In this document: positions 6,923-27,127 of the stretch, in pieces
How positions within the stretch are numbered: position 1 is the stretch's first letter
Layout: every line of letters starts with the position of its first letter
Assembly (NCBI GenBank): GCA_016214855.1
Contig: JACRMT010000004.1
Span: 124,001-188,000 of the forward strand
Direction of reading: 5' to 3'
DNA length: 64,000 bases
Source: Nitrospirota bacterium
Lineage (GTDB): Bacteria > Nitrospirota > Thermodesulfovibrionia > Thermodesulfovibrionales > UBA6898
Translations under genes and position numbers: made by a program
Notes under the pieces: generated by a model
Seen by the model: the letters and a program-made list of their open reading frames with translations, nothing else
Told to the model about the DNA's origin: nothing
Database searches by the model: none

Positions 6923-7822
6923 ATGGTTATTCGTTTTGGTCTTATGGTTGCAATAGTATCTGCGGCACTGGTTATGGGGGGATGCGCCAGACCGGCCGCT
7001 ACTGTTGACGGCAAAGGTATCAGCAGGGAAAAGATTGACCTTCATATGAAGGACCGGCTGAAGGAGCATAAACTTCAGAATGCGGCAGTTGACGAAAAAA
7101 AGATGAGGGCCGCCATTCTGCAGGAACTGATCGGCGAACAGCTTGTGCTGAATGAAGCTGCCGTGAAAGGCATTATCATTGCCGATGCTGAGATTGATAA
7201 AGAACTCGAACAGCTCCGCAAAAATATGGGTGAGGAGCAATATCAAAAAGCCCTTAAGGACAGGGGTCTTACCCCTGAATCTTACCGCAGCAGGCTCAGG
7301 GAGCGGATCACCTTTACTCGTTTTTTAGAAACTTTTGTGAAGCCGGAAGATGTCAGCGAACAGGAACTGCTGGATGTCTATAAGAACAGTCCGAAGCCAT
7401 TCCTGAAGCCTGCTCAGGTCAATATGAAGATTGTCGAATTTCAGACTGAGGATTCAGCAATTGCTGCTGCTGCTGAAATAAAGAGGACAAAAGCGGACTT
7501 TGACGAGTATGCAAAAAAGCTTGATGCTGAAAAGAAAGCTTCTGTAACGGATTATGGCTGGGTATCTCCGGACTTTTTTTCGCCTTCAATGGCGTCATCT
7601 GTCAAGATGCTTAAAGAAGGTCAGCAGGGCGGCCCTTATAAGGGAAAGACCGCATTTTATCTCGTGAGGGTAAAGGGCGTTCAGCACGAGAGCATAGCTC
7701 CGTTCGCTGAAGTGAAGGAATCGATCCGTGCGACGCTTCTGCAGCAGAAGCGGGGCGAGGCATATACGCAGTGGCTTGAACAGAAACGAAAGAGCGCAAA
7801 GATCGTTATAAATCTGAAATAG
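6923..7822 (+). CDS. PpiC/SurA-type peptidyl-prolyl isomerase lipoprotein
   Basis: This 299-residue protein has a lipoprotein signal peptide with a lipobox ending GGC (Cys about residue 18). A SurA-type N-terminal helical domain follows (SREKIDLHMKDRLKEH, LIGEQLVLNEAAVKG), then one divergent parvulin-like domain (about 155-270: FLKPAQVNMKIVEFQ, YGWVSPDFFSPSM). It is expected to be a membrane-anchored periplasmic foldase. AGGAGG lies before ATG 6923. It follows hypE by ten bases, so it may be read with the hyp genes, although no functional link is obvious. Two further relatives lie at 14664 and 15563. Confidence 0.85.
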   Translation: MVIRFGLMVAIVSAALVMGGCARPAATVDGKGISREKIDLHMKDRLKEHKLQNAAVDEKKMRAAILQELIGEQLVLNEAAVKGIIIADAEIDKELEQLRKNMGEEQYQKALKDRGLTPESYRSRLRERITFTRFLETFVKPEDVSEQELLDVYKNSPKPFLKPAQVNMKIVEFQTEDSAIAAAAEIKRTKADFDEYAKKLDAEKKASVTDYGWVSPDFFSPSMASSVKMLKEGQQGGPYKGKTAFYLVRVKGVQHESIAPFAEVKESIRATLLQQKRGEAYTQWLEQKRKSAKIVINLK

Positions 7823-14149: not shown

Positions 14150-14676
14150 AAGGGGAGAGCATGGATGTTTTATGGGCACCCTGGAGAATGGAATACATCA
14201 AGTCGTCACCAAGGACAGAAGGGTGCGTGTTCTGTGAAAAAATGCTTGACACCAGAGACCGGGACAATCTTCTGCTGTACCGGAGCAGTCATACATTTGT
14301 CCTGATGAACCCCTTTCCGTATAACAATGGTCACCTGATGGTCCTTCCCGGAAAGCATGCACCTGGCATGGAAGGACTTGAGGATGAGGAGCTTCTTGAC
14401 TTGATGAGAACCGCGCAGCTCTGCATTGATTCCCTTCGTGAGGCAATGAGCCCCGAGGGTTTCAATGCGGGCATCAATCTTGGGAAGGTTGCAGGTGCAG
14501 GACTTGCCGATCACCTGCATCTGCACATTGTGCCGCGATGGGCAGGGGACGCAAGTTTTATGACTGTTGTCGGCGAGGTCAGGGTCATCCCTGACCACCT
14601 GCTGAGAACGTATGATTCTCTTTTCGAAATCTTTAAGAGACGGGGCGCCGAGAGGGCAGGCAGTTGCAAAGGGTGA
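14146..14676 (+). CDS. HIT-family nucleotide hydrolase/phosphorylase
   Basis: This 176-residue histidine-triad protein has the catalytic motif HLHLHIVPRW (about residues 124-133). The zinc-type CVFCEKM segment near residue 27 and NPFPYNNGHLMVLPGKH are typical of the Ap4A phosphorylase/HIT branch. Its likely activity is cleavage of dinucleoside polyphosphates or adenylated by-products. It starts four bases inside the preceding gene. The real start may be the second Met (MDVLWAPWRMEYI, 14161), which matches the family N-terminus better. Confidence 0.92.
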   Translation: MKGESMDVLWAPWRMEYIKSSPRTEGCVFCEKMLDTRDRDNLLLYRSSHTFVLMNPFPYNNGHLMVLPGKHAPGMEGLEDEELLDLMRTAQLCIDSLREAMSPEGFNAGINLGKVAGAGLADHLHLHIVPRWAGDASFMTVVGEVRVIPDHLLRTYDSLFEIFKRRGAERAGSCKG

Positions 14677-15614
14677 TACGGTACACTGCGGTATCGGTCC
14701 CTGTTCTTGTCCTGTTTTTTTTCAGCAGCGTATGTTTTGGACTTACGGTTGACAGAGCTCTTGCTGTTGTCAATGGCGAGGTTGTTACCCTTTCTGATTA
14801 TGGCCGGTTCGTAGCGAGGATGGATCAGAAAGCTGACAGGGAAAAGGTCGGCGAGCAGTATTTGAGGACGCTGATCGAGGAAAAGCTTATCCTTCAGGAG
14901 GCAAAACGCAAAGGTTATGATGCGACTGAAGAAGAGGTCAGCCAAAGCATTGCCGGTTTTCTTGAGCAGGCAGGCATGCAGGAAAAGGATTTTGAAAAAA
15001 AGATTGCCCTGGAAAATCTCAGCATGTCGGATTACCGTTCCTTGCTCAGGGAAAATATCATATCCCTGAAATGCATTGAAAAAGAGGTCAATGCAAAGGT
15101 GATCGTAAGCAGCAGCGACCTTTCGCGCTATTATGAAAAGCAGCGTGCCCGTTTTATGGAAAGCCCGGAAAAGGTCCTTGTCATGGCAATCGTTATGAAG
15201 CTGAGCGCAACCCCGAGCCTGACCGAGATCACTGATCTTAAGATCAGGTCGCTGAAGGTCTACTCAGAGATCAGAAACGGAGAATCTTTTGAACGGCAGG
15301 TGTACAAGTATGCTGATGAGTCCGTGAAAAGCCTTGGCGGCAAACTGGGAGAATTCGAGAGGGGTGCGATGATATCTGTTCTCGATGAAAAGATCTTTTC
15401 GATGAAGGAAGGTGAGGTCAGCGAGCCGATCTGGACAAAAGATGGTGTATATATTCTCAAGATAGCAAAGAGGACTCAGGCAGTGTATACTGCCTTCGAA
15501 AAGGTGAAGGATGAGCTGTATGCCAAGGCATACGAAGAGAAGCGAGAGGAAACATTTAACGCATGGATGAAAAAGATATGGGAAAGGTCTTCTGTAAAAA
15601 TACTGCAGCAATAA
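14664..15614 (+). CDS. SurA-like periplasmic peptidyl-prolyl isomerase
   Basis: This 316-residue protein has a cleavable signal peptide (VSVPVLVLFFFSSVCFG). A SurA N-terminal domain follows (VDRALAVVNGEVVTLSDY, LRTLIEEKLILQEAKRKGY), then one parvulin domain (about 165-290: LGGKLGEFERGAMISVLDEK, GEVSEPIWTKDGVYILKI). It is predicted to chaperone outer-membrane proteins. The start is TTG 14664 or GTG 14673, with AGAGGGCAGG upstream. It overlaps both neighbours (13 and 52 bases), consistent with one operon through the giant gene that follows. Confidence 0.9.
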   Translation: MQRVIRYTAVSVPVLVLFFFSSVCFGLTVDRALAVVNGEVVTLSDYGRFVARMDQKADREKVGEQYLRTLIEEKLILQEAKRKGYDATEEEVSQSIAGFLEQAGMQEKDFEKKIALENLSMSDYRSLLRENIISLKCIEKEVNAKVIVSSSDLSRYYEKQRARFMESPEKVLVMAIVMKLSATPSLTEITDLKIRSLKVYSEIRNGESFERQVYKYADESVKSLGGKLGEFERGAMISVLDEKIFSMKEGEVSEPIWTKDGVYILKIAKRTQAVYTAFEKVKDELYAKAYEEKREETFNAWMKKIWERSSVKILQQ

Positions 15615-18600
15615 TCTGTCTGCTCATTGCTCTGCTCTGCTCTGGCGGCAGTTCCGGCGGCGCTGTGCAGGAGGCTGATCTTTTTGAAAAGGCCTATGAA
15701 TATTATCTTGCCCTAAACCCTGAGAAGTCGATTGAGACCTTTGATCAGTTTCTCAAGCAATTTCCCGACAGTTCTGCCCTTGATTCCGTCCTTTTTTGGC
15801 GTGCCAAGGCGCTTATGCAGATGAAAAGGATCGACGAAGCTGCCCGGGGACTCCGCAAATTAAGAGAGACCTTTCCTGAAAGTTCTTACTCCATATTTGC
15901 TGAAAAGGAGCTCGATGCACTTAAGAATCTGCCGCAGAGGACAGATAGAACTGATATTGTCAGGGAAAAGACAGCGAAGATCTCCGACGCCAAAATTGAG
16001 GGTTATGAGAACCGCATAAGAAAGCTTGAAGCTGAAAAGGCTGACCTGGAAAAGCAGCTGTCCGATGCGGAAAGAAAAAGACAGCTCACAGAGAAAGGCC
16101 TGTCTAAGGCACTTGATGACAAGAATGCCCTCGAATCACAACTTGATGAAGTGAAAAAAAGCAGGGATGACCTTGTGCAAAAGGGAGCAGTCCTGGAAAA
16201 GGGAAGCACGGAGACATCAAGATTAGCCGAAGAAAAGAGAGTTCTCGAATCCAGACTGAAAGCTGGAGAGGAAAAGATTGGCAAGCTTTCCGCTGATCTT
16301 AAGCGGACTGAGGAGAAGATTGCGGCCATAAGCGGTGAACTCACCGGCAAAATTCAGCAGGGTCAGAAGGACTGGGAACAGCTCGATCTGCTGTCAAAAG
16401 AGCTTAAGACCCGGAATATGGCCATCGAAACTTCACTAAAAGAGAAGGACAGTGCCCTCTCAGACGCGCAGCAGAGCATGGCGAGCATGAAAAAGAGCAT
16501 GGCAGATTTTCAGTCTGCGAAACAGCGTGATGTTGAGAGCCTGAATCAGTCTGTCGCGAGATTGTCAGCTGAAAAGGTCCTGCTTGCAGAAGAGGCTGCC
16601 GCTGAAAAGAAGAAGGCCGATGATCTCCTGGCCAGGCTGCAGGCGAAAGATGGGGAAGTGAAGAAGCTCCTGTCTGATGAGACAAAACGCAAAGCTTCTG
16701 AATCTGCTGCTGAGGAGAGGTTAAAGCACGGCGTCGCAGAACTTGCAAGGATGCAAGGCGAAAGGGACGACTTGCAGTCGTCGGTCAGAACACTCGAGGC
16801 GCGTTTAAGGGAAAAGAACGATCTTGCGTCACAGGCCGGAGATATCAAAAAGCTGCGCGAAGAGGTAATTTCCAGCACCGCAGAGCTTGATAGAATAAAG
16901 AAGGAAAATAGAGCGCTCCTTGAAGACAGGAAAGTCCTCGAGACCCGGATAGCCGAGGATCAGGAAAAATCGAGACTAAGCGCGCTCAGCAGGGATAAAG
17001 AGGAAGAGAAAGAAAAGAAAGCACTCGTTGCGGAATCCCGCGAACTGGAAAGGAAACTGCATGATGCAGCAGCGCAGGTCAGGCAGCTTCTCGATGACCG
17101 GCAGAAGATGGATGCTGTTCTCAAGGATCGTGATCAGGGTCTTGCAAGGTCACAGGAAGCAATAGCTCTGCTGGAGCGGACACTGAAGGGCGCAGAACAG
17201 GAGAAGGCAAAGCAGATACAGGAACTTGTTGAGCGGAGCAGGACTGCAGACATAGAGAAGAAAACGCTGCAGGATGAGCTGGCCAGGGAGAGAAAAAGAG
17301 TTGCGGAGTTCTCAGGCAGGGTAACAGAAAGGGAGGCTGCCCTGATAGATGAGGTGAAAGCTCTGCAGGGTTCCCGGCAGGAGCTTGAGGCAAGGCTTGC
17401 ATCGGAAAAAGGCGACCGTCGGGACGAAAAGCTGAAACTGGAGGCGGAGCGGGACAGTATACGAAGACAGTTCGAGGAACTTGGCGCGCAGGCAACAAAG
17501 GTCAGGGATGTGTTATCACAACTCGATGAAAGCCGCAAGAAGCAGGAAGAGCTGGCAAAGATTGCTGCGCTGAACGACAAAGAGATCACAAAGCTCAGGA
17601 CCGAAAAGGGAGAATTGGAATCGAGACTCAAGGACGCCGTCAAGAGACAGGATGAAACGGATCTTGCTCTCATCAGGATATCAGAGGAGAAACAGGTCAG
17701 AGAGGCCCAGCTAAAGGATCAGCAGAACAGGCTCACTAAGTCACAGGAGTCAATAACATTGCTGGAGAAGACCCTGAAGGGATCAGAGCAGGAGAAGGCA
17801 AGGCAGCTGCAGGACCTTGATATGCGGGCAATAAAGACCAGGGATGCGTTATCACAGCTCGAAGAGAGTCTCAAGAAGCAGGAAGAACTGGTAAAGATTG
17901 CTGCGCTGAACGACAAAGAGATTACAAGGCTCAGGGCGGAAAAGGCAGGGCTGGAAGACAAGCTCAGGGTGGTTGAGGAAGGGGTCAAGACCTTATCCGG
18001 TATTAAACAGCGGGATGAACGTACGGCAGCAGAAAAACTCGATCTGGAGCAGAAACTGACGAAAGAGCGCGCCAGGTTTGATACTGAAACGCAGAAGATC
18101 GGATCAGAGCGCGATGAACTCAAAAAACAGCTCGGGGGCCTGGAAGCGTTGAGAAAGGAAAAAGAGGGGCTTGCGGCGAGACTTGATGAGACGAAGCGTT
18201 TACATGCTGATGCAATAATGAAGAGTGGTCAGGCGGAGAAAATGGCACAGGATAACCAGATCCTGCTGGATGAAAAGAAGCAGTTGGAGATCAGACTGAG
18301 AGACAGCGAGGAGAAAATTGCAGTCCTTGCCTCGCAACGTGACAAAGACACTGCTCTTGAACGTGAACGAAAAGATCTCGCTGCACGCCTTGACGAGCAG
18401 GAAAGGAAGCTTAAGGAACAACAGGCATCCATCTCAAGGCTTATGGTCGAGAAGGGTGCCATGGAAAAAGAGCTTAAAGAGGGGAGACAGGATATTGCCG
18501 CTGTAAAGGCGCTCAGGGAATCCCGCGACCATCTCCAGCGCGAGGCTGATAGGATGAAGACAGAGCAAAAGCAGATGCAGGCAGAATTATCGGAACTGAA

Positions 18601-19465
18601 AAAAATAGATAAAGAGCATCTGACCGCAAATAAAGCACTGTCCGGCGAACTGGCTGCACTGAGAATGCAGGCACGCGATACTGATAAGCCTTTTCTCCGG
18701 ATAGGACAGGAACGTTTTACTCTTGCCACGGTGATTCGCGAAGGTACGATCGCAGGCAGCGTTGCTGATAAGATCAGGGTAAAGACCGTTCCCTGGAGGA
18801 CAGGGAATATCGTTGATGACTTTATAGCCGAGCAGATACTCGCTCGCAGGGCTCGGGAAGAGGCATTCACGATTGATCCAAAGCTGAAGGGGTCGCTGGT
18901 GAAACAATATGCACTGAACGAAGAAGAGGGCGCGTATCTTGACCGATATCTGGCCATCGACGGACTGTTCAGAAGTAAGGATGCAATTCCTGCCCCAACA
19001 GAGACGGACGCCAGGGAATACTATAATAAACACCGCGAGCAATATCTTCATGGGCGCGAAAGCCGGATCAGGGTTCTCAGCATAAAATACGGAAAGTCTG
19101 ATGAACTTGAAAAGAGCGTTATTGCTGTTGAAATCCACGGAGAGGCTCTTGAGGGAAGACCCTTTGATGCGATTGCGAGAAAACGCCCGGCTGTCGCTTC
19201 GATGAAAGAAATGTCTCTTTCGAAGCTGCCAGAATGGGTTCGCGTGAGGCTTGCCAGCCTTAGGGAGGGAGAGATCAGCAGTATTATTTCAACAGACAAC
19301 GAGTTTATGATCATTCAGGCTTTACCCTCAAAACCGGGATATCGCCCCTTTGAAGAGGTCAAAAAAGAGGTCGAGAAGAAACTGTCGGCTGAGCATTCAG
19401 GCCGGAGGCAGTCCCTTGAGGATTGGTTAAACGCTCAGAAAAAAGAGATAGAGTTCCTGAGATAA
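15563..19465 (+). CDS. 1300-residue fusion: TPR-like N-terminus, long coiled coil, C-terminal PPIase-like domain
   Basis: After a signal-like segment (about 10-28) comes a TPR/YbgF-like region (about 38-120: FEKAYEYYLALNPEKSIETF, QFPDSSALDSVLFWRAKAL). About 900 residues of Lys/Glu/Gln-rich heptad sequence follow (about 140-1040). The C-terminal 260 residues resemble the SurA/PpiC layout: a helical domain (DDFIAEQILARRAREEAF) then a parvulin-like part (ESRIRVLSIKYG, LPEWVRVRLASLREGEISSI). This looks like a periplasmic spacer carrying a foldase at its tip. The start may be ATG 15563 or ATG 15578; the first cysteines do not form a convincing lipobox. It overlaps the SurA-like gene by 52 bases. 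I know no named family with this whole architecture. Confidence 0.85.
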   Translation: MDEKDMGKVFCKNTAAIICLLIALLCSGGSSGGAVQEADLFEKAYEYYLALNPEKSIETFDQFLKQFPDSSALDSVLFWRAKALMQMKRIDEAARGLRKLRETFPESSYSIFAEKELDALKNLPQRTDRTDIVREKTAKISDAKIEGYENRIRKLEAEKADLEKQLSDAERKRQLTEKGLSKALDDKNALESQLDEVKKSRDDLVQKGAVLEKGSTETSRLAEEKRVLESRLKAGEEKIGKLSADLKRTEEKIAAISGELTGKIQQGQKDWEQLDLLSKELKTRNMAIETSLKEKDSALSDAQQSMASMKKSMADFQSAKQRDVESLNQSVARLSAEKVLLAEEAAAEKKKADDLLARLQAKDGEVKKLLSDETKRKASESAAEERLKHGVAELARMQGERDDLQSSVRTLEARLREKNDLASQAGDIKKLREEVISSTAELDRIKKENRALLEDRKVLETRIAEDQEKSRLSALSRDKEEEKEKKALVAESRELERKLHDAAAQVRQLLDDRQKMDAVLKDRDQGLARSQEAIALLERTLKGAEQEKAKQIQELVERSRTADIEKKTLQDELARERKRVAEFSGRVTEREAALIDEVKALQGSRQELEARLASEKGDRRDEKLKLEAERDSIRRQFEELGAQATKVRDVLSQLDESRKKQEELAKIAALNDKEITKLRTEKGELESRLKDAVKRQDETDLALIRISEEKQVREAQLKDQQNRLTKSQESITLLEKTLKGSEQEKARQLQDLDMRAIKTRDALSQLEESLKKQEELVKIAALNDKEITRLRAEKAGLEDKLRVVEEGVKTLSGIKQRDERTAAEKLDLEQKLTKERARFDTETQKIGSERDELKKQLGGLEALRKEKEGLAARLDETKRLHADAIMKSGQAEKMAQDNQILLDEKKQLEIRLRDSEEKIAVLASQRDKDTALERERKDLAARLDEQERKLKEQQASISRLMVEKGAMEKELKEGRQDIAAVKALRESRDHLQREADRMKTEQKQMQAELSELKKIDKEHLTANKALSGELAALRMQARDTDKPFLRIGQERFTLATVIREGTIAGSVADKIRVKTVPWRTGNIVDDFIAEQILARRAREEAFTIDPKLKGSLVKQYALNEEEGAYLDRYLAIDGLFRSKDAIPAPTETDAREYYNKHREQYLHGRESRIRVLSIKYGKSDELEKSVIAVEIHGEALEGRPFDAIARKRPAVASMKEMSLSKLPEWVRVRLASLREGEISSIISTDNEFMIIQALPSKPGYRPFEEVKKEVEKKLSAEHSGRRQSLEDWLNAQKKEIEFLR
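17146..17940 (+). repeat. Degenerate internal duplication within the coiled-coil gene
   Basis: Two blocks recur at both DNA and protein level. Block A encodes SQEAIALLERTLKGAEQEKA near 17150-17230 and SQESITLLEKTLKGSEQEKA near 17745-17825. Block B encodes KKQEELAKIAALNDKEIT near 17535-17590 and KKQEELVKIAALNDKEIT near 17875-17930. In the second copy A and B are contiguous, whereas in the first they are separated by about 260 bases. This suggests duplication followed by an internal deletion or insertion. Confidence 0.8.
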
Positions 19466-19466
19466 T

Positions 19467-20600
19467 ATGGTAGACATTGACAGACAGATAGAGATTGCAA
19501 AGAAAAAGCCGCTCACGGCAGAGAACCTCAACTATATCGGCGACCTGTATCTGAAGAAAGATGATAAGCAGCGGGCTGTTGCATATTTTTTTGAGGCGGC
19601 TGACAAACTTCACTTCGCACAAAAAGAAAAGAAGATCGCCATTTACAAGAAGATCCTGAAGATCTCGCCGGTCTCGGAAAAGGCCTACATCGGCATTATT
19701 GAGATCCTCTCAAAGATGGGGCTTGTGATGGAGGAGAAGAAATACCTGCATATGCTCGCACAGCTTCATGAGAACAGAGGTGACTCGGCAAAAGCTATCG
19801 AGCTTCTCGACAAGATCAGGGAACTTGATCCCCATGTCATGCCGGACGGCACATTTTTCCACCGCGAAGCCCACGAGCAGATAATCGGATACGGCAAGGA
19901 TAGTCGAAGGCAGGAGGCAGCAATAAATGAAGACGAAAACAATGTGAGCCAGCCGGGAGAGCAGTCTCTGCCGGATTTATCGGTATCCGGCCCTGCCGAA
20001 GCTATCGAGGAGGAGAAACTGATTGTGGCCTCGCTTGAAGAAATTCCCCTTGAGGAGCCTCCTCCTGCTGAGGGGGTGTTGAGCGGAATCTCCCGTCGGC
20101 AGTATCTTCTTGGCGGCATCATTCTCGTATTGCTTGTTTTTGCTTCAGGAGTTTTATACTATTCCTTTGGGACACGGGCAAAGCCGGTTGCATCTCTGCC
20201 GGTGTCGAGCCGTCTTAATGGTTATGAGATAACTGTTTCCAGGCTTGCTGACCAGACAGAGGTGACTGGCCTTATCACTGCGCAGGATCTGCGCGATAAC
20301 GATTTCCTTGTGCTTGCCGTCAGCAGTCTTAGCAATTGTATTCCGGACGCATTTGCAACAGCCCCCTACAACATGATATCGTTACGAGACAGGAAAGGCG
20401 GGGCTACGCGCATTAAACCAGTGGACGGACTGCTGAAGACTTCCAGATCAATATCAAAAATGAATGTTTGCGGCAGAGACAATGCAATAGTTTTTGTAAG
20501 GATGATCGTCCCTGTTGACCGACATATCCTTTATTCCGGACTGGCCCTGGACGGACTTCAGAATACCGGGCCGCTCACAATCACATGGGATCTGCGATAA
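19467..20600 (+). CDS. TPR-containing single-pass membrane protein of unknown function
   Basis: The protein has 377 residues. The N-terminal about 130 residues are TPR-like helices (ENLNYIGDLYLKKDDKQRAV, RGDSAKAIELLDKIRELDP). An acidic, proline-rich linker (about 150-205) and one transmembrane segment (about 213-232: YLLGGIILVLLVFASGVLYY) follow, then a C-terminal domain of about 145 residues that I cannot place. A basic SRRQ before the membrane helix suggests the TPR part is cytoplasmic and the C-terminal domain periplasmic. It begins two bases after the giant coiled-coil gene, so the products probably act together. Confidence 0.75.
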   Translation: MVDIDRQIEIAKKKPLTAENLNYIGDLYLKKDDKQRAVAYFFEAADKLHFAQKEKKIAIYKKILKISPVSEKAYIGIIEILSKMGLVMEEKKYLHMLAQLHENRGDSAKAIELLDKIRELDPHVMPDGTFFHREAHEQIIGYGKDSRRQEAAINEDENNVSQPGEQSLPDLSVSGPAEAIEEEKLIVASLEEIPLEEPPPAEGVLSGISRRQYLLGGIILVLLVFASGVLYYSFGTRAKPVASLPVSSRLNGYEITVSRLADQTEVTGLITAQDLRDNDFLVLAVSSLSNCIPDAFATAPYNMISLRDRKGGATRIKPVDGLLKTSRSISKMNVCGRDNAIVFVRMIVPVDRHILYSGLALDGLQNTGPLTITWDLR

Positions 20601-20605
20601 GAGTC

Positions 20606-22051
20606 ATGCGGATCATGCGGTTCATGGTCTTGACAGCTGCTACTATGCTGATCGTGTCACTCTATGCGCCGTTAGCGTCTGCGCTGCCTGAAAAGAAGCC
20701 TGACAGCAGGCTCCTTGCCTTAAAAATACAAAAAAATATTTCTCTGAATGATCTGATCAAGACCTCGGGATACGGCATCAGCGACGAGGCTGTCGTCCTG
20801 TTCCTTACCGATTTCATCGGGCTTAACCCGTCTATCAAAAGTGTCAGTCTGCTGAAGAAGGGAACTTTGGTGCGGCTGCCGATCAAGCATCTGAAGAGGT
20901 CGGAGGAAGGTTCGGCACGTTCCCGGGAAAAAGCCGAACGCGGCAGCCCGCGCTATCGGGTTTCAAAAAGGAGAACTCCGCTTCTCCTTCCCGCTCAGGA
21001 AGTTCTGCGCATTGACAGATCCGTGTTGTTGAAGAACATACAGAGGCTCTTTTCTGAACTGGGAGAGGACGTATCTTTAGTGAAGGAAGGGTTTAAGTAT
21101 TTCTCCCTGGGCGAAAAAAGCGACCTTTCTTTTGATACCGGCCGGTTCCCGATTTTGGAGCTGCGCAGTGATCTCATCCTCATCGTTGACCACACAGATA
21201 CGTTTCCCGAAGACGTGAAAAACATGCTTGAGGTCTCCTGGCCCGAATATCGGGTGGTCAGTCCGCGGGGCAAAGTAGACCTCCGGGGGATTGTTCCTAT
21301 CCTGCTGCATGAGTCAGGATACCTTTTCCAGGAAAACAGCAAGATGATTTCGGGCGGAGCAGCTCAGGTCGAGTATTATGCGGATTTTCTTGTTCATGGG
21401 AAAAATGGTAAGCCTATGGAGAGCGATATTTCGCTGGTCAGTGTTCTTGACAGCAGCGAATACCGGACGCCGCAGGAGATCACTTCATGGTTTAATGACC
21501 GGGATATACGGATCATCGAGCTCGCGGAGCAGGACAGAAAATATATAAACAGAAGTCCTGGATCGGCTCTCGATATGCAGGGGAATCCCCGGAGAAACGT
21601 ATTTGTAGAAGGCGTGCTTACGCTCATGGGTTATCCTTTTTCGCGTGGCCAGAATATCAATATGTCACCGAAGAAGGAGATAACCTTCAACATGCGGGCT
21701 GACCTGCTTATTGATATGGGATACAGGAAGAAGATCATTGAATTTTCAGGCATCACTGAGCAGGAGCTGAAGTATGTGCAAAAGTCAGGGCTGGATATAG
21801 TGCAGATTGAACCATGGGAGTCGAAAAATGATGTGATCAGGAAAGTTATGACTCTCCTGTCTCTTAACTATACGAACTCGTCCAGAAAGAATTCCTCGGT
21901 CCTTTCGCCGAGGAATACCCGCTATCGCCTTTTGGTTCCCGGTTTTGTCGTTAAGTCTCTGAAGGGAGTATTTTTCTTCACGGATGCCAATATAGACGCG
22001 GAACTGCAGAAGAACATCATGGGCGAGGGCATATCGTTGGTCACTTTTTGA
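20606..22051 (+). CDS. Secreted protein with LysM-like N-terminal module, unknown function
   Basis: The product is about 480 residues with a signal peptide (MRIMRFMVLTAATMLIVSLY to ASA). A LysM-like module follows at about residues 45-95 (ISLNDLIKTSGYGISDEAVV, LNPSIKSVSLLKKGTLVRLP), which would bind peptidoglycan. The remaining about 380 residues, including DLILIVDHTDTFPEDVKNML, match nothing I recognise. A frame also opens at ATG 20585, but 20606 has AAGAG five bases upstream and gives a better signal peptide. It is co-directional with the TPR gene. Confidence 0.75.
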   Translation: MRIMRFMVLTAATMLIVSLYAPLASALPEKKPDSRLLALKIQKNISLNDLIKTSGYGISDEAVVLFLTDFIGLNPSIKSVSLLKKGTLVRLPIKHLKRSEEGSARSREKAERGSPRYRVSKRRTPLLLPAQEVLRIDRSVLLKNIQRLFSELGEDVSLVKEGFKYFSLGEKSDLSFDTGRFPILELRSDLILIVDHTDTFPEDVKNMLEVSWPEYRVVSPRGKVDLRGIVPILLHESGYLFQENSKMISGGAAQVEYYADFLVHGKNGKPMESDISLVSVLDSSEYRTPQEITSWFNDRDIRIIELAEQDRKYINRSPGSALDMQGNPRRNVFVEGVLTLMGYPFSRGQNINMSPKKEITFNMRADLLIDMGYRKKIIEFSGITEQELKYVQKSGLDIVQIEPWESKNDVIRKVMTLLSLNYTNSSRKNSSVLSPRNTRYRLLVPGFVVKSLKGVFFFTDANIDAELQKNIMGEGISLVTF

Positions 22052-25948: not shown

Positions 25949-27127
25949 ATGGAGAATACAATAGGGCGGCTTATTACAAAAAGATTTTTTTCTGTCGTGG
26001 GTGCACTCTTTTTCCTCGCGATATCATCAGTATTCCCTTCTTTCTCTTCCGCTGTTGATAACATAGACGTCACCGATATTCGTTACTGGTCATATCCGGA
26101 TTATACGCGCGTTGTCATAAGCCTGACCAATAGTCCTGATTATGCCGGGAACAAACTTTCAAATCCGGACAGACTGTATTTTGACATCAGAAACAGCCGT
26201 CTGAAGCAGGATCTTCAGAAGACCATATCCGTTGGTAATGGCATGCTCAAGACCGTGCGGGCAGGGCAGTTCAATGAGAGCACCGTGCGCGTTGTGCTTG
26301 ATCTTGATAAAGTGACCAAGTACAAGGTCTTGACCATGGAAGATCCTATTCGTCTTATTATAGACATCTATGGCGAAAAGCCGGCCGCGTCGGTCAAGAA
26401 AAGGATCGTGCTCGATCCCGGCCATGGAGGTCATGACCCGGGAGCGGTCGGTCCGAAGAATTTATACGAAAAAGATGTTGTACTCGACATCGCATTAAAA
26501 CTGAAGAAGATCCTGGCGAACGATCCGAATCTTGAGATATTCCTTACAAGAGAAACGGATGTGTTTATTCCCGTTGAGCAGCGGCCCGCGATTGCGATCA
26601 GCAAGAACGCTGACCTTTTTCTTTCAATCCATGCCAATGCGAGCCCTCGAAGAGATGCGAGAGGGATTGAGACTTATTTTCTCAATTGGACTAACGATGA
26701 AGAAGCAAACAGGGTCGCTGCGCGCGAAAATGCCATATCCCTCAAAAAAATGAAAAAGCTGAATGAAGGAAGGGATGTGCTCGAGGTGATGCTGAGCGAT
26801 CTCAGGAGGGACAATAAACGCGATGAGTCCCTGAAACTCGCAAACTTTGTCCAGCAGAACATGGTGAGCAGCCTGAACAAGAGCTACAGCCATATCGTAG
26901 ATCACGGCGTGAAGCAGGCCCTTTTCTATGTGCTTTTCGGGGCGCAGATGCCTTCCGTGCTGGTTGAGGTGTCCTTTATCAGCAACCCTCTTGAAGAGAA
27001 GCTTCTCTCAAAGGACGGTTACCGTTCAGAACTTGCGAAATCGATTGCATCCGGGATCAACAAATACATGAGTGGGGCACCTGAGGGCCAGACCATAGCA
27101 CAGCGCGGCAGGACCGTTGTCCGCTGA
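25949..27127 (+). CDS. amiC: N-acetylmuramoyl-L-alanine amidase with AMIN domain
   Basis: The protein has 392 residues: a signal peptide (about 1-34), an AMIN domain (about 38-140: IRYWSYPDYTRVVISLTNSP, DRLYFDIRNSRL) and an Amidase_3 catalytic domain (about 150-380). The zinc ligands are visible in VLDPGHGGHDPGA (His), in EKDVVLDIALKLKK (Glu), and in LFLSIHANASP (His). It cleaves the amide bond between MurNAc and the stem peptide, usually for daughter cell separation. It starts 12 bases after the NifU-like gene and overlaps the EcfT-like gene. Confidence 0.95.
   Translation: MENTIGRLITKRFFSVVGALFFLAISSVFPSFSSAVDNIDVTDIRYWSYPDYTRVVISLTNSPDYAGNKLSNPDRLYFDIRNSRLKQDLQKTISVGNGMLKTVRAGQFNESTVRVVLDLDKVTKYKVLTMEDPIRLIIDIYGEKPAASVKKRIVLDPGHGGHDPGAVGPKNLYEKDVVLDIALKLKKILANDPNLEIFLTRETDVFIPVEQRPAIAISKNADLFLSIHANASPRRDARGIETYFLNWTNDEEANRVAARENAISLKKMKKLNEGRDVLEVMLSDLRRDNKRDESLKLANFVQQNMVSSLNKSYSHIVDHGVKQALFYVLFGAQMPSVLVEVSFISNPLEEKLLSKDGYRSELAKSIASGINKYMSGAPEGQTIAQRGRTVVR

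Follow-up and report, generated by a model that had tools for sequence, protein, structure and literature searches.

A conserved exported Nitrospirota protein joining a TPR head, a coiled coil of variable length and a SurA-like module without parvulin catalytic residues

The 1300-residue open reading frame at 15563-19465 (+ strand) of the window, the whole 64,000-nucleotide stretch of Nitrospirota DNA analysed here, encodes a genuine, conserved exported Nitrospirota protein. Its parts follow one another, from the N- to the C-terminus, as a signal peptide, a TPR head, a coiled coil and a SurA-like module (residues 1043-1300; Table 1). The initial annotation had read this frame as a fusion of a TPR-like head, a coil of about 900 residues and a SurA/PpiC-like C-terminus, and both its coordinates and all three parts were confirmed. 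No account of a TPR-coil-SurA-like architecture was found in the open-licence literature; it is apparently new there, within a known class of chaperones. This periplasmic class thus gains an arrangement in which one chain, starting within surA, carries both a putative docking head and a SurA-like core that has lost its catalytic residues.

The longest version of the frame begins at 15563, while the second ATG, at 15578, is the likely start, which yields MGKVF ahead of a hydrophobic stretch and is kept in relatives. The ATGGGAAA start is conserved in orthologues. The hydrophobic segment of the signal peptide is the sole strong hydrophobic stretch of the protein.

Table 1. Features of the fusion gene and its neighbours (window positions)
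Feature	Position	Strand	Basis
SurA-like chaperone gene, overlaps fusion by 37-52 nt	14664-15614	+	SurA_N and Rotamase hits
Signal peptide, likely start ATG 15578	15578-15664	+	n-region KVFCK and hydrophobic AAIICLLIALL
TPR head, residues 34-121	15662-15925	+	TPR_6 above cut-off; profile reaches CpoB/YbgF/BamD in PDB
Coiled coil, ~900 residues (122-1038)	15926-18676	+	heptad period far above shuffles; helix in modelled short orthologue
Internal duplication copy 1, 170 nt, 79% to copy 2	17464-17633	+	DNA repeat; protein-level shift of 112 residues
Internal duplication copy 2	17800-17969	+	DNA repeat and protein-level self-match
SurA-N-like module, beta hairpin and helices (residues 1043-1144)	18689-18994	+	AlphaFold2 model aligned to SurA/PrsA/LIC12922
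Parvulin-like (Rotamase_2) domain without catalytic residues (1145-1268)	18995-19366	+	PF13145 2.2e-8; Z 11.5 to SurA P1; catalytic-position alignment
C-terminal helix of SurA-like core	19367-19462	+	model helix CT 265-275; alignment extends to SurA residue 427
Gene for TPR, one transmembrane segment and extracytoplasmic domain	19467-20600	+	starts 1 nt after fusion; synteny
Gene for exported 488-aa protein, no assigned family	20585-22051	+	16-nt overlap with TPR-membrane gene
Gene for Ig-like repeat protein, 710 aa	22130-24262	+	weak Big_1 match; 78 nt after 488-aa gene

SurA-like tail and TPR head

A domain search of the C-terminus against parvulin families returned Rotamase_2 (PF13145) above its cut-off (2.2e-8, 35.4 bits against 27), and the Pfam search gave no sequence match of the tail to the SurA_N family. 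A tail profile also detects, at ~1e-16, ordinary isomerases of 330 residues from the phylum. An AlphaFold2 model of the tail built from 11 sequences has pLDDT 84 and pTM 0.49, and its domain arrangement is less certain because the rmsd over the whole module is high. Foldseek ranks LIC12922, SurA and PrsA first among matches to this model (E 6e-11 to 2e-9, ~300 columns). A PpiD-YfgM entry is also among the structural matches. Aligned by VIA-align, the model matches SurA P1 with Z 11.5 and rmsd 2.1 Å over 91 residues, and its residues 20 to 280 can also be aligned to whole SurA. Structure prediction and PDB comparison thus agree with the SurA/PpiC-like C-terminal fold initially proposed, and the model places the tail in the SurA/PrsA/PpiD parvulin class, with an N-module and a C-terminal helix around a parvulin domain. 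With SurA, PrsA and LIC12922 the last 260 residues share the hairpin and helices, the single parvulin domain and the closing helix; unlike in these proteins, the core caps a rod formed by TPR head and coil and is devoid of catalytic residues. Against the PpiD equivalog PRK10788 the fusion scores 19.3 bits, far below the cut-off of 493.

All 11 aligned orthologous tails lack both parvulin catalytic histidines, on the first and last strands, as well as the GGDLG loop. The first-strand histidine is replaced by V, T, S, Y, M or A, the loop is shorter by about 7 residues, and GxHI is changed into forms such as EFMI. In the same alignment, a parvulin of the source genome (L078) retains ASHILV, GGDLG and GFHII, and E. 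coli PpiC retains all catalytic features. Because these positions are lost throughout the aligned orthologues, the tail is probably a chaperone-type pseudo-parvulin and not an isomerase, so that the term foldase, used for it initially, does not hold in the enzymatic sense. The loss resembles that in the first parvulin domain of SurA and in PpiD, whose parvulin domain reportedly lacks activity although the protein still acts as a chaperone (PMC2956729). The family shows that a parvulin chaperone core can persist without its catalytic residues.

The head is matched by TPR_6 above the Pfam cut-off and by YfiO/BamD slightly below its own. A PDB search with a profile of 12 orthologous heads retrieved CpoB (3.7e-12), YbgF (3.6e-9) and BamD (6e-8). 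The score against BamD subfamily TIGR03302 is 31.2 bits, under the cut-off of 81.4, and since a separate BamD gene is present in the source genome, the head is not a missing BamD. In CpoB, a short coil precedes the TPR. CpoB (YbgF) and the fusion have in common TPR repeats of the same type, export, and a coiled coil in one chain. Identity with CpoB proper was rejected, as the order in the fusion is reversed, TPR first and then a 900-residue coil and the SurA-like module, and the gene lies outside a tol-pal cluster. CpoB is a regulator at the Tol/PBP1B interface (PMC4458516).

A TPR domain combined with a SurA-like core whose parvulin is inactive also recalls the Sec-associated YfgM-PpiD pair of E. 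coli, in which the YfgM TPR domain holds the SurA-like core of PpiD (PMC9643414, PMC2956729). Unlike this pair, the fusion is a single polypeptide with a long coil and, apart from the signal peptide, no membrane anchor. YfgM-PpiD may serve as the best available model for cooperation between head and tail, by analogy and not by membership. The source genome also encodes a short PpiD-like protein (221 aa, parvulin domain absent) and a YfgM-like TPR membrane protein (L105:3220-3885 and L106:2439-3140), and replacement of YfgM-PpiD by the fusion was therefore rejected.

Coiled coil: pattern, length and duplications

The coil is 44% charged, and proline is absent across residues 141-1040. Its hydrophobic residues recur with a period of 3.5 residues, at a local amplitude of 2.49 compared with 1.24 +/- 0.11 in shuffled sequences (shuffle maximum 1.49), which argues for a heptad coiled coil and not simply a charged helix; a heptad signal this strong, across 900 residues with hardly any proline, indicates that the coil is maintained as such. 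In the model of a short-coil orthologue, helices 136-214 and 221-260 lead directly into the strand with which the tail begins. An SMC identity was rejected: the coil-only match (38.5 bits, cut-off 567) is compositional, and the ends are a signal peptide with TPR and a SurA-like module.

Coils delimited by HMM in members of the A group measure 901 (window), 876, 606, 599, 423, 324, 280, 280, 279, 273, 216 and 124 residues. An A-type member of 410 aa in G006 has ~75 coil residues, judged by eye, and has lost the SurA-N helices as well; in the tree its closest kin are the two 900-residue forms, a placement made unsure by its long branch. Coil length at one locus therefore differs more than tenfold among relatives, with both ends kept. 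Between the window protein and that of G003, heads are 67% and tails 61% identical, both without gaps, and coils 48% identical with ten gaps, so head and tail are under stronger constraint than the coil. This range of spacers offers a natural series for testing the distance between docking site and chaperone.

Two DNA-level duplications are found in the coil of the window, of 170 nt at 79% and 117 nt at 74%, and its protein shifted by 112 residues against itself scores 181, the shuffled maximum being 86. Scored by an ungapped diagonal scan against a register-preserving shuffle, the best internal matches reach 181-348 in the window, G003, G010, G014 and G009 (shuffles at most 104), and little or nothing beyond shuffles in the coils of G020 and G019 (280-324 residues). 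These comparisons indicate that long coils enlarge by lineage-specific internal duplication.

With a coiled-coil rise of ~0.1485 nm per residue, the 901 residues would measure ~134 nm if extended. This is about fourfold the periplasm of E. coli, taken here in place of that of the host, where the distance from inner to outer membrane is 30-32 nm in one study (PMC8824477). Considering this length, the more than tenfold range and growth by duplication, a straight trans-periplasmic strut of fixed length, as the periplasm-spanning device of the initial annotation implied, is unlikely; tilted, folded-back or murein-parallel layouts are compatible. The envelope proteins SlpA and Omp-alpha are likewise long coiled coils, of 28 nm and 45 nm, with an SLH wall-binding domain and an outer-membrane anchor (PMC9388160), neither of which was found in the fusion by domain search.

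Locus and distribution

The fusion was found adjacent to a SurA-like gene already in the initial annotation, and the link is stronger than noted there, as the two genes overlap and the first signal-peptide codons lie inside the overlap. In all 19 intact loci, from two families, the fusion starts inside surA. Overlaps of the longest frames are 31, 37, 46 or 52 nt, in one phase throughout, and part of this constancy is expected because the start codon falls within conserved codons at the surA end. The order NAD kinase, uracil-DNA glycosylase, (HIT), SurA, fusion is conserved, and the fusion is probably produced together with SurA. Three members of the same genus (G002, G005 and G007) carry surA with no fusion behind it, which shows that SurA is independent of the fusion. 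Both parvulin histidines are absent from the neighbouring, canonical-looking SurA, and its GGKLG loop is kept. A second exported SurA-like gene (6923-7822, + strand, 299 aa) begins like a lipoprotein and likewise lacks the parvulin histidines.

Downstream, the genes for the 488-aa and Ig-like proteins occur in the identical 9 of the 27 genomes of the family, every one of them fusion-bearing (Fisher p 0.005, kinship ignored), and are absent from eight others that carry the fusion. Coils tend to be longer where this cassette is present (p 0.03, 6 vs 7, kinship ignored). PDB sequence searches with the two proteins gave no convincing match. An amidase-like gene, identified by eye, is located farther downstream (25949-27127), and Tol-Pal genes were not seen beside the fusion.

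Of the 27 genomes in its Nitrospirota family, 17 carry an A-type fusion (E <1e-29), and four genomes of a sister family (G057, G295, G195, G209) carry the fusion at the same locus position; absence from close relatives, which the initial annotation would have taken as a sign of an assembly artefact, is thus not observed. The named relatives are Nitrospirota metagenome assemblies, one of a Thermodesulfovibrio sp. A contig profile search with the head alignment gave Nitrospirota matches only, by a single narrow pattern that could miss others, and DNA similar to the fusion was not found in the plasmid collection. Two metagenome-derived relatives (L041:7092-11263 and L046:8504-11913) have a gene interrupted within its coil, one by an N run and the other by a frameshift next to a repeat; assembly trouble is the probable cause. 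A B-type paralogue of 678 aa (L068:6561-8597) is found elsewhere in the source genome and is related to copies in other genomes of the genus. In the B-type copy of G002 (L047:7127-8219), where the coil is nearly missing, head and tail are encoded by two overlapping frames, through either a natural split or a frameshift.

Proposed function and alternative explanations

Tentatively, we favour the fusion being a periplasmic non-enzymatic SurA-type chaperone or scaffold on a rod of variable length. Its TPR head would dock on a partner in the envelope: most plausibly a SurA-like core, bound as that of PpiD is by the TPR domain of YfgM, or else a BAM or cell-wall component. The coil may mediate oligomerisation and would set reach and valency instead of a fixed distance; in long-coil species it would have to be tilted, folded back or laid along murein. 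The SurA-like tail would bind unfolded or partner protein without isomerising it, and it is from the modelled fold that such chaperone activity is argued. A further, quite improbable arrangement is that heads and tails of neighbouring chains, or SurA, dock into each other as in YfgM/PpiD, producing a filament or mesh of ~100 nm along murein that arrays dead SurA modules at a spacing tuned by coil duplication.

A cell-wall or division scaffold is a somewhat unlikely alternative. Here the head would be CpoB-like, the tail an adaptor no longer handling folding clients, and the long coil would run along the envelope and organise the downstream TPR-membrane, 488-aa and Ig-like proteins. CpoB as the best head match, the cassette shared by fusion-bearing genomes with a tendency to longer coils, and the amidase-like gene are consistent with this, but CpoB-type TPRs are common, the cassette is missing from the eight fusion-bearing genomes and no adjacent Tol-Pal genes were seen. 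We consider it unlikely that the coil is a repeat expansion that is tolerated and drifts, with a functionless length and only head and tail of importance. Lineage-specific duplications, the wide range of lengths and the nearly coil-free B-type copy of G002 would fit such drift; however, the near absence of proline, the heptad pattern across 900 residues and the 48% identity to the G003 coil argue against it.

Export, the SurA-like tail and the SurA neighbour could also be accommodated by a fixed-length periplasm-spanning strut that positions a catalytically active foldase at the outer membrane or across the murein, but the missing catalytic residues, coil lengths that do not fit one periplasm width and the extended length of ~134 nm make this very improbable. 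Practically no weight is given to an assembly or annotation artefact, to which the two broken metagenome-derived genes might point: the gene is a single open frame in many independent genomes, with constant order of parts and constant surA overlap, and its presence in independent assemblies has already refuted this explanation.
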